A DNA stretch of 58,524 nt, from positions 1-58,524 of the forward strand of contig JAFZBK010000016.1 in the NCBI GenBank assembly GCA_017561825.1, written 5' to 3'. The notes beneath the pieces are model-generated. The model was not told the DNA's origin and made no database searches. It was given only the letters and a program-made list of their open reading frames with translations. The DNA is from Prevotella sp. (GTDB taxonomy: Bacteria > Bacteroidota > Bacteroidia > Bacteroidales > Bacteroidaceae). Shown here one piece after another: positions 17,160-32,516 of the stretch. The translations under genes and the position numbers were made by a program. The first letter of the stretch is position 1, and every line of letters begins with the position of its first letter.

Positions 17160-17549
17160 TTAGAGATACTTGTTGCGAAGGGTTGCACCCAACAGCATCA
17201 TATAGGTATCAAACTGCTTGCTGTCCAATACTGTGCGCATCTTATCCACATCGTTCTTAACGGCCTGACGAACCTTTGCTGAGCGGTGGAAACCACGTGC
17301 ATCTGCTGCAGACATCATCTCGTTGTTGAAATTGTTCTGGATAATCTGAACAGCTTCCATCTGATCGTAGGTGAGATCCAATTTCTCTGCCAGTCTGCGT
17401 ACATCGAATGACATATCATAACTCTCAGCACTTCTCATGTGCATCATACTACGACGCTGAATATTTCTTTCACCTTCATTGTTGTCTGACTTTGCGAAAC
17501 TACAGGTAATGGTCATTATTGCTACTGCAACTAATAAAATCCTTTTCAT
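17160..17549 (-). CDS. Small exported protein, unknown (Spy/CpxP-like helical pattern)
   Basis: This 129-residue protein has a signal peptide (about 1-20) and a charged helical mature part with MxxM/RRxA-type spacing (residues about 35-125), which resembles small periplasmic Spy/CpxP-like or DUF4890-like proteins. No definite family can be assigned. It is the last gene before the candidate origin, transcribed away from it, and is followed by a long A/T-rich leader. Confidence 0.7.
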   Translation of the reverse strand: MKRILLVAVAIMTITCSFAKSDNNEGERNIQRRSMMHMRSAESYDMSFDVRRLAEKLDLTYDQMEAVQIIQNNFNNEMMSAADARGFHRSAKVRQAVKNDVDKMRTVLDSKQFDTYMMLLGATLRNKYL

Positions 17550-17780
17550 TTTTTTTCTCCTTTTCTTTTTTATTTCAGGACTATCACTCTTACTCTAGAA
17601 CTAATAGCTTTCGTCCTTACTTGATGATTAATTGATTTTGTTTTCTGGTTATTTGACGAAGCTAATAATCAATAGTTTAAAAGAATCTGAACTTTTTTTC
17701 TCCTTTTCAGTCATACTAGAATACTAGTAAAACTATGTTTTACTTTATATATAAAAATTTTTTTTCTAGTTTTCTAATTG
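17550..17780. other. AT-rich intergenic region left of the palindrome array
   Basis: About 230 bp without a gene. It has two copies of TTTTTTTCTCCTTTTC (about 17550 and 17694) and TACTAGTA-like short palindromes near 17720. It could include a duplex-unwinding element for the adjacent DnaA-box cluster, and must contain the promoter of the leftward gene at 17160-17549, although no clean TAnnTTTG was found. Confidence 0.4.
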
Positions 17781-17839
17781 TTCCCATGCTGGGAACGTTT
17801 TATTCCCAAGTTGGGAACATTTTATTCCCACATTGGGAA
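17781..17839. repeat. Triple palindrome array TTCCCA-N3-TGGGAA, 22-bp period
   Basis: Three perfect 15-bp palindromes begin at 17781, 17803 and 17825, exactly 22 bp apart. The central three bases differ (TGC, AGT, CAT) while the arms are invariant. The spacers are A/T-rich (ACGTTTTA-like). A second array of the same design lies at 32458-32516. The period of two helical turns would place bound dimers on one face of the DNA. Confidence 0.8.
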
Positions 17840-17893
17840 TAATTACTTACTGTATTATATAAGCAAGAAAATCCATTTTATTACTCATTAAAG

Positions 17894-18201
17894 TTATCCA
17901 CATCAGCATGTGGAAAACATTGTGTATAACTTTTAGTATATCCTTGGAAAACATAAAATGAAGAGAACAATGTGAATAATCCACCTGTTATTTCCAAGTT
18001 TTCATGAAGTTTTTTACAATTTCCATTGCAAAAAAGATATAAACTTATTATTTTTGCACAAGAATAGAGTATTGTGGATAAACTACATAACTCTTTCATC
18101 ATAAAGAGGAAACAATGAGAATAGTATGTGGAAAAGTAGTAGCTGAATGTTTATAACGTAATAACCAAAGAATTGAGTGAAAAGTTTTCCACTTATCTAC
18201 A
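17894..18201. other. Candidate replication origin oriC: DnaA-box cluster
   Basis: Four perfect TTATNCACA boxes occur within 190 bp: 17894-17902 (+), 17921-17929 (-), 17971-17979 (-) and 18073-18081 (-). Two TTTTCCACA boxes lie at 17909-17917 (-) and 18127-18135 (-). One-mismatch boxes lie at 18148-18156, 18185-18193 and 18193-18201. The surroundings are strongly A/T-rich and non-coding. In a random sequence of this length far less than one perfect box is expected. dnaA itself is not in the window. Two parS sites at 47 kb agree with an origin-proximal location. A DnaA-regulated non-origin cluster remains possible. Confidence 0.7.
18026..18056 (+). promoter_or_regulatory. Possible promoter of nadA inside the DnaA-box region
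   Basis: TTG (18026-18028) and TATTTTTG (18049-18056) are 20 nt apart. The nadA start is about 200 nt downstream, so the transcript would run through several DnaA boxes. DnaA occupancy could therefore influence nadA. Confidence 0.45.
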
Positions 18202-18259
18202 CCCCATTATCATTCTACTATTCAAAATAGAAAAATAAAAAACTAAAGAATATATAAAT

Positions 18260-19252
18260 ATGAAGTTGAAAAAGGTATGGACAAAGCAAGGTTATATTGA
18301 TGAACCTGTTGCTGAAGGTACAGACTTGAAAAAAGAGATCCGAAGGATGTGTGATGAGAAAGGAGCTATTATCCTGGCTCATTATTACACGATAGGAGAT
18401 ATTCAGGATATAGCAGATTTTGTAGGTGATTCCTTGGCTTTAGCTCGTAAGGCTGCAGAGACAGATGCAAAAATCATGGTGATGTGTGGTGTTCACTTCA
18501 TGGCTGAGACATGTAAACTGTTATCTCCTGATAAGGTTGTATTATGTCCTGACTTGAATGCTGGTTGTTCTTTAGCTGACAGCTGTAAGGCTGAGGATCT
18601 TAAGAAATATAAAGATGAGCATCCAGGTTATCAGGTTGTGAGTTATGTAAATACTACAGCAGCTGTAAAAGCATTGACAGATGTTGTAGTAACAAGTGGT
18701 AATGCAAAGAAAGTGATTGATCAGTTACCAGAAGATGCAAAGCTAATATTTGGTCCTGACTATAATTTAGGAAACTATATCAATGAGGTTACTGGCAGGA
18801 ATATGTTATTATGGAATGGCGGTTGTCATGTTCATGAACGTTTCTCTATTGATAGTATCATAGCACTAAAGAAAGAATATCCAGATGCTGTTGTGATGGC
18901 ACATTTGGAGTGTAAAGGTCCTGTATTGGCATTAGCTGATGTAAAGGGTAGTACAGCTACTATGCTCAATTATGCTCAGCAGAGTGATGAAAAGCAGTTT
19001 ATTGTGGCTACAGAAGCTGGTATTCTTCACGAGATGCAACGAACTTGTCCTGATAAGGAATTTATACCTGTACCTCCAGAAATCAGCGAGGGAAGCTTAG
19101 GATGCAGTTGTAATGAGTGTCAATATATGAAGATGAATACTTTGTTGAAGATTTACAACTGTTTGAAGTATGGTTGGCCATCCGTAGAGGTAGATCCAGA
19201 AATAGCTAAAGATGCTGTAAAGCCAATTAATAGGATGTTGGAATTGGGTTGA
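18260..19252 (+). CDS. nadA: Quinolinate synthase
   Basis: NadA condenses iminoaspartate with dihydroxyacetone phosphate to quinolinate in NAD synthesis and needs a [4Fe-4S] cluster. The 330-residue product has the three-fold repeated architecture with conserved cysteines C103 (AGCSLADSC), C189 (GGCHVH) and the C-terminal C282/C284/C287 group, plus HYYTIGDIQDIADFVGDS near the N-terminus. nadB and nadC are not adjacent. By eye, the codon use is more A/T-rich than in the genes left of the origin candidate. Confidence 0.96.
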   Translation: MKLKKVWTKQGYIDEPVAEGTDLKKEIRRMCDEKGAIILAHYYTIGDIQDIADFVGDSLALARKAAETDAKIMVMCGVHFMAETCKLLSPDKVVLCPDLNAGCSLADSCKAEDLKKYKDEHPGYQVVSYVNTTAAVKALTDVVVTSGNAKKVIDQLPEDAKLIFGPDYNLGNYINEVTGRNMLLWNGGCHVHERFSIDSIIALKKEYPDAVVMAHLECKGPVLALADVKGSTATMLNYAQQSDEKQFIVATEAGILHEMQRTCPDKEFIPVPPEISEGSLGCSCNECQYMKMNTLLKIYNCLKYGWPSVEVDPEIAKDAVKPINRMLELG

Positions 19253-32457: not shown

Positions 32458-32516
32458 TTCCCACGTTGGGAATGTTTTGTTCCCAACGTGGGAATGTTTT
32501 GTTCCCAACATGGGAC
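32458..32516. repeat. Second triple palindrome array TTCCCA-N3-TGGGAA, 22-bp period
   Basis: Units begin at 32458, 32480 and 32502, again exactly 22 bp apart. The first two are perfect (centres CGT and ACG); the third ends TGGGAC where its last base is part of the stop codon of the leftward gene. The spacers are TGTTTTG and TGTTTTG. It lies between convergent genes, so it may act as a terminator-like structure, but three equal units on a helical period point to protein binding or a mobile repeat. Confidence 0.8.

Follow-up and report, generated by a model that had tools for sequence, protein, structure and literature searches.

A conserved DnaA-box module upstream of nadA as the probable chromosomal replication origin of a Prevotella-type bacterium

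Does a dense cluster of DnaA boxes that lies beside nadA and away from dnaA mark the place where the chromosome of a Prevotella-type bacterium begins to replicate? The cluster sits in the window analysed here, a stretch of 58,524 nucleotides that constitutes contig C31 of a 2.98-Mb Prevotella sp. genome (69 contigs, 88% complete). From computed support, namely the skew switch in relatives, the polarity of 16S genes, a conservation that is independent of nadA and the layout of boxes and triplets, we conclude that positions 17894-18260 are very probably the chromosomal replication origin (oriC) of this bacterium. The initial annotation had placed a candidate origin at 17894-18201; the boxes are there, but the module runs on to the start of nadA (~18260), and the useful boundaries are about 17894-18260.

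Scanning 17880-18210 with at most one mismatch to TTATNCACA returned nine box sites: four perfect (17894(+), 17921(-), 17971(-) and 18073(-)), two of the form TTTTCCACA (17909(-) and 18127(-)) and three other one-mismatch sites (18052(+), 18148(-) and 18193(+)), which is exactly the count that the initial annotation had given. The cluster had also been described as non-coding, with a small-protein gene on one side and nadA on the other, and the ORF and Pfam scans identified these neighbours as a 129-aa ORF and a NadA gene. The neighbouring genes and the boxes of the cluster up to its distal end are as follows.

17160-17549, minus strand: 129-aa ORF without a Pfam match.
17894-17929, no single strand: upstream DnaA-box array, made up of TTATCCACA at 17894(+), TTTTCCACA at 17909(-) and TTATACACA at 17921(-).
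17971-17979, minus strand: DnaA box TTATTCACA, from the box scan.
18052-18060, plus strand: one-mismatch box TTTTGCACA, overlapping a promoter-like motif.
18073-18081, minus strand: DnaA box TTATCCACA, the most constant box of the module.
18127-18135, minus strand: DnaA box TTTTCCACA, at the same offset in 41 of 101 loci.
18148-18156, minus strand: weak DnaA box TTATAAACA, at the same offset in 25 of 101 loci.
18260-19252, plus strand: nadA (quinolinate synthase; Pfam NadA, E 6.5e-118), a clade-level neighbour outside the proposed origin.

A cluster of this kind might arise by chance in A/T-rich DNA, and the local intergenic DNA is indeed A/T-rich. In 4,000 first-order Markov simulations of 17850-18259, however, the mean number of perfect boxes was 0.04 and the maximum two, so that four were never reached, and the cluster is conserved in relatives; the chance reading was thereby already refuted, and we assign it practically no probability. 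Over the whole window, eight perfect boxes were observed against 2.39 expected from shuffles, and the genome as a whole contains 132, against 85 for a reversed control pattern. Boxes are therefore mildly enriched overall, and the exceptional part is their density at the cluster. Inspection by eye of 100 of the 132 places found a single other spot with three boxes per ~310 bp, G000:C24:37732-37941; its three perfect boxes lie within a 235-aa protein-coding ORF, presumably Sir2-like, and this rival cluster was treated as chance. Across 101 of 119 loci (18 were dropped because of short flanks), boxes with at most one mismatch numbered 7.2 per 445-bp module, compared with 0.59 per 445 bp downstream. 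In 86 of the 101 loci, a perfect or one-mismatch box stood at exactly the offset of 18073-18081.

If the cluster is the origin, then the cumulative GC skew should reach its minimum there, as the initial annotation had expected. With our own genome in 69 contigs, skew was read in relatives from sampled stretches, which covered 14-27% of genomes G045, G117 and G024, 21% of contig C1 of G132 and 2.5% of G016. In the three closed relatives (G117, G045 and G024) the sampled cumulative minimum fell at or near nadA. A two-arm fit placed the origin 0 kb from nadA in G117 (-52 to +69 kb) and in G045 (-17 to +183 kb), and at -70 kb in G024 (-163 to +35 kb), with bootstrap intervals that include zero in all three; the expectation was thus borne out in two genomes and lies within the interval of the third. 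The local skew curve is noisy at the scale of tens of kb. In G132 the element is unlinked to nadA, and the sampled skew switch lies at the element; in G016, which has no NadA match, the cumulative minimum of the sparse sample also lies at the element. Within our own window the cumulative minimum is near 50 kb, not 18 kb, which we take as gene-strand noise that is uninformative or mildly against an origin here.

The direction of the 16S genes pointed to the same place. We searched 12 genomes, of which G137 and G146 were uninformative. In the remaining ten, read by eye, every one of the 23 full-length 16S copies carried on the contig of the element is oriented away from it (three each in G010, G075, G132 and G154, one each in G016, G045 and G084, two each in G024 and G061, and four in G117). 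Partial 16S copies mostly agree, with one partial copy in G016 and one fragment locus in G154 pointing the wrong way. That dnaA is not nearby, as had been noted at the outset, was confirmed: in our genome it is on a different contig (C41), and in the closed genomes it lies 840 kb (G024), 696 kb (G117) and 786 kb (G045) from the element. Of the features by which an oriC may be recognized, a position beside dnaA is thus lacking, and a non-coding DnaA-box cluster is present, as is a GC-skew switch in relatives (G117, G045, G024 within its interval, G132 and, sparsely, G016). On the second large contig C2 of the two-contig genomes G132 and G146 there was no match to the conserved core described below at E<=1e-3, so this second contig may start replication by another system.

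Skew of this kind resolves to tens of kb, and by skew alone an origin elsewhere within ~50-100 kb of the module could also fit. The module might then be a site that titrates or reactivates DnaA, as datA and DARS do in Escherichia coli, with the true origin nearby. Against this, among the sampled stretches of at least 14 kb the highest number of perfect boxes per 310 bp is that of the module in G024 (three), G045 (two) and G132 (two); in G117 the module has three across the contig join, compared with two in one other stretch. It also has an arrangement of boxes, spacer, triplets and A/T-rich DNA, and the numbering of the G117 contig starts inside it. In the chromosome of Prevotella communis E15-14 the element is ~4 kb from the end, and the two numberings suggest that submitters also rotated their chromosomes to the module. 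We regard a titration or reactivation site as extremely improbable.

The initial annotation had anticipated conservation upstream of nadA, and this held for close relatives. Among the best 29, 28 have a perfect box at most 400 bp upstream of nadA (for one of these 28 the sequence extends over just 230 bp), and a perfect or near minus-strand box lies at -185 to -197 in 27. Many rows of the alignment share minus-strand boxes near -370, -358 and -346, a long core and a conserved distal end, and many relatives carry two or three minus-strand boxes with this 12-bp spacing at the place of the upstream array. Locus L029 is a clear exception with no perfect box, and the core model matches partially in the same genome (G011, E 3.5e-8). 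Among 22 further, mostly more distant nadA loci the expectation held in part: the cluster stands at its usual position in seven, is displaced upstream in three and is missing upstream of nadA in 12. These 12 loci mostly encode a NadA of ~60-72% identity, and their element was mostly found elsewhere, where checkable again at the skew or 16S switch.

What is conserved is a module of ~370 bp that contains the cluster together with a 116-bp core, with the consensus TTTTTTG..GAAAAAAGATATAAACTTATTAATTTTGCACC in the alignment.

18002-18117, plus strand: 116-bp conserved core (model R1), holding ...AAAAAAGATATAAACTTATTATTTTTGCAC... and the near-constant box.
18026-18056, plus strand (towards nadA): promoter-like motif in the core, consisting of TTG at 18026-18028, 20 nt, and TAnnTTTG at 18049-18056; we take it to resemble a Bacteroidota-type promoter.

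The core model is sequence-only and was built from 37 sequences over 116 positions, namely the window and 36 of 52 scanned loci; the 16 omitted were the window duplicate and motif-less or cut-off loci, so that conservation inside the core alignment is partly by construction. Since the training loci were selected, independent evidence has to come from the 113 genomes that contributed no training sequence. Of these, 59 matched the core at E<=1e-5, as did all 37 training genomes. In total, 110 of the 150 genomes of the genus, including our own, matched at E<=1e-3 and 96 at E<=1e-5. In 95 of these 96 the core is single-copy at the stricter threshold, as expected of an origin present once per chromosome. 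The exception, G044, has three matches on contigs C13, C26 and C30, which together carry three copies of the origin core and three of nadA and reflect either mixed bins or a real duplication. The other 54 genomes, including the 99% complete G009 and G063, gave no core match at E<=1e-5, so the origin there has diverged or lies elsewhere. Strains of Prevotella, Segatella, Xylanibacter, Hallella and Hoylesella bear the element, as do many Prevotella and Prevotellaceae metagenome-assembled genomes (MAGs). In a 41-genome sample of the family, strong matches came from the three members of the genus, and beyond the genus the best value was E 8.4e-8; the core model is unfit as a family-wide tool. A MAG contig labelled Bacillota (L243) gave a strong match of 79.1 bits and is probably a mis-binned Prevotella contig, and the weak matches in a Bacteroidetes MAG (L218, 22.1 bits) and a Bacilli MAG (L264, 17.8 bits) are probably due to chance.

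A conserved region upstream of a gene could instead be the promoter or control region of that gene, with DnaA boxes that are regulatory or fortuitous and with no origin function. The linkage to nadA lends itself to this reading. In at least 118 named stretches, from which L218 and L264 were not deliberately removed (nor from the box and triplet counts), nadA follows on the same strand within 1.5 kb in 105, and of the 96 genomes with a strong match 82 have nadA, by eye, within ~2.4 kb of the core. The core also holds the promoter-like motif, which we take to be of Bacteroidota type, and several weak model matches fall mainly over the promoter-bearing half of the core. The module also occurs apart from nadA. 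In six of the named stretches it precedes a DUF3108 gene instead; the rest comprise one with nadA further off, three with too little sequence and three with neither gene. Eight of the 96 strong-match genomes have nadA elsewhere than the core (G010, G017, G029, G075, G084, G124, G132 and G146), and six have the core and no NadA match (G003, G016, G026, G047, G076 and G118). Because nadA is elsewhere or was not found in these 14 of 96, the module is not merely a control region of nadA, and linkage to nadA is ruled out as a defining feature. In the genomes with nadA elsewhere, the seven upstream regions of nadA that were read, of eight, contain no box cluster, and the unlinked element coincides with the 16S switch in G010, G075, G084 and G132, in the last of these also with the skew switch. 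We therefore consider the reading as nadA control alone to be largely refuted and very unlikely; a double role, as origin and as nadA control, is possible. A NadA match was found in 108 of the 150 genus genomes, including our own, and was missing in 42, including the ~99% complete G003, G009, G016, G026, G049 and G063.

We read 12 of the 14 unlinked modules (all except those of G010 and G029). Each of the 12 carries a minus-strand box at +66 to +69; between -123 and -86 there is a minus-strand box in ten, nine of which have at least two at 12-bp spacing; the upstream regions of G003 and G026 have no phased array. A DUF3108-type ORF follows downstream in eight of the 12 (Pfam-confirmed for the G132 protein), and in the other four no ORF start was found within the scripted downstream range. 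Compared by sequence, the module thus appears well conserved in most genus genomes that bear it, even with different neighbouring genes. The core keeps its orientation whether nadA or a DUF3108 gene follows, so transcription directed out of the origin may play a part.

The nadA-proximal end of the module, 18185-18260, contains in order tandem boxes, a C-rich spacer, T-centred triplets and the weakest duplex near the cluster.

18185-18201, plus strand: tandem distal boxes, TTTTCCACT at 18185-18193 (two mismatches) and TTATCTACA at 18193-18201, the proposed unwinding platform.
18202-18205, plus strand: spacer CCCC, 4 bp.
18206-18223, plus strand: trio-like run of six triplets, ATT ATC ATT CTA CTA TTC.
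18221-18260, no strand assigned: A/T-rich candidate unwinding region, the least stable of the 40-bp stretches listed for 17701-18320.

An A/T-rich flank that could unwind had been suggested from the outset, and 18221-18260 is the predicted candidate, with the lowest duplex stability nearby; ~0.01% of the 40-bp stretches of the window are as weak, and the second lowest stability lies at 17721-17760. In the alignment of 117 of the 119 loci (two were dropped), the middle base of triplets 1 to 5 is T in 100, 99, 82, 84 and 87% of loci, and that of triplet 6 in 49%, so that the sixth triplet is present in the window and not conserved. After the triplets, the loci turn T-rich and then A-rich. Among the 15 columns 18206-18220, the five with the most T form exactly one reading frame, which column permutation yields in 3 of 3,003 cases, for a stretch that was chosen after the pattern had been noticed and was measured afterwards. 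The unlinked modules, read by eye, have a box-like distal end in 12 of 12, followed by at least two T-centred triplets in 12 of 12 and at least three in ten of 12; those of G118 and G075 start with just two. The run of G076 seems longer through repeated ATC units, as would be expected of a triplet array. On the bottom strand the triplets read 3'-NAN-5', with 3'-TAA/TAG-5' closest to the box.

In its order of elements the distal end matches a basal unwinding system (BUS) of the DnaA-trio type. DnaA bound at the upstream array and the central boxes would raise the local DnaA concentration, and DnaA at the tandem distal boxes (18185-18201) would form an ATP-filament that extends along the bottom strand at 18206-18223. 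The strands would be pulled apart into the A/T-rich 18221-18260, where the helicase would be loaded, and two forks would depart in opposite directions, one of them through nadA. The steps of DnaA binding, strand opening and helicase loading are ones that we infer by analogy, and the trio step, transferred from Bacillus subtilis, is probable; the identity of the origin is the firmer claim. More tentatively, the origin of the genus could be a self-contained module of ~370 bp whose 116-bp core, conserved beyond the boxes, is its lineage-specific part, which would either bind a putative initiation factor or act as a promoter and assist opening through transcription, and the module or its surrounding genes could have been rearranged between nadA and DUF3108 neighbourhoods.

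A palindrome, TTCCCANNNTGGGAA, is arrayed with 22-bp spacing at 17781-17839, close to the module, and again at 32458-32494. With at most one mismatch it has 114 sites in the genome, compared with 17 for a control pattern. Its exact form is absent from the at least 118 named stretches and from the nadA loci of 29 relatives, and in sampled relatives it occurs once in G045 and not in G024, G117 or G132. The array at 17781-17839 was rejected as part of the origin, being dispersed in its own genome and absent in exact form from the relatives' loci. As far as sampled, TTCCCANNNTGGGAA is a species-restricted dispersed repeat or regulator array.

Origins of Bacteroidota are often missed by a search next to dnaA. 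A core model that locates the origin in draft genomes would anchor depth-based growth-rate estimates in a dominant gut and rumen genus. The module also offers a short origin sequence for biochemistry, and poses the question of what the core contributes beyond the DnaA boxes. In titles and abstract starts of the open-licence PMC literature we found no publication describing this core or an experimental Prevotella origin, and no experimentally mapped origin of any Bacteroidota. An origin distant from dnaA has already been reported; as far as that literature was searched, the genus module, its core and its unwinding end are apparently new in print.

The available passages on Prevotella intermedia OMA14 describe a predicted oriC on chromosome 1 that is far from dnaA, and state, following DoriC, that origins away from dnaA are common in Bacteroidetes (PMC4755523). 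Our module resembles that prediction in its multiple DnaA boxes, its GC-skew transition and its distance from dnaA; the OMA14 origin is an Ori-Finder prediction, given in those passages as coordinates without neighbouring genes, core or unwinding element, and is likened here by description (PMC4755523). For B. subtilis oriC, the passages at hand attribute the loading of DnaA onto the adjacent trios to the tandem boxes, and a higher local DnaA concentration to the distal ones (PMC6669920). A DnaA-trio search, as excerpted, asked for at least three 3'-NAN-5' triplets at most 16 bp from a box, found 3'-GAT-5' to be the commonest proximal triplet and reported potential BUS sequences in 1755 of 2070 predicted origins (PMC8287927). 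Judged against these excerpts, the Prevotella module is like the B. subtilis BUS (DnaA-boxes 6/7 and DnaA-trios) in having tandem boxes, a spacer of 4 bp, at least three consecutive triplets (six in the window) and further boxes upstream, and unlike it in that the proximal triplet is 3'-TAA/TAG-5' and not the most frequent but not required 3'-GAT-5' (PMC6669920, PMC8287927). It further differs from B. subtilis oriC in lying away from dnaA, in its additional 116-bp core with a promoter-like motif, and in being a prediction from sequence. The oriC of E. coli likewise combines a DnaA-box cluster with an A/T-rich unwinding flank at a distance from dnaA, and the Prevotella module shares these traits in a different overall layout.
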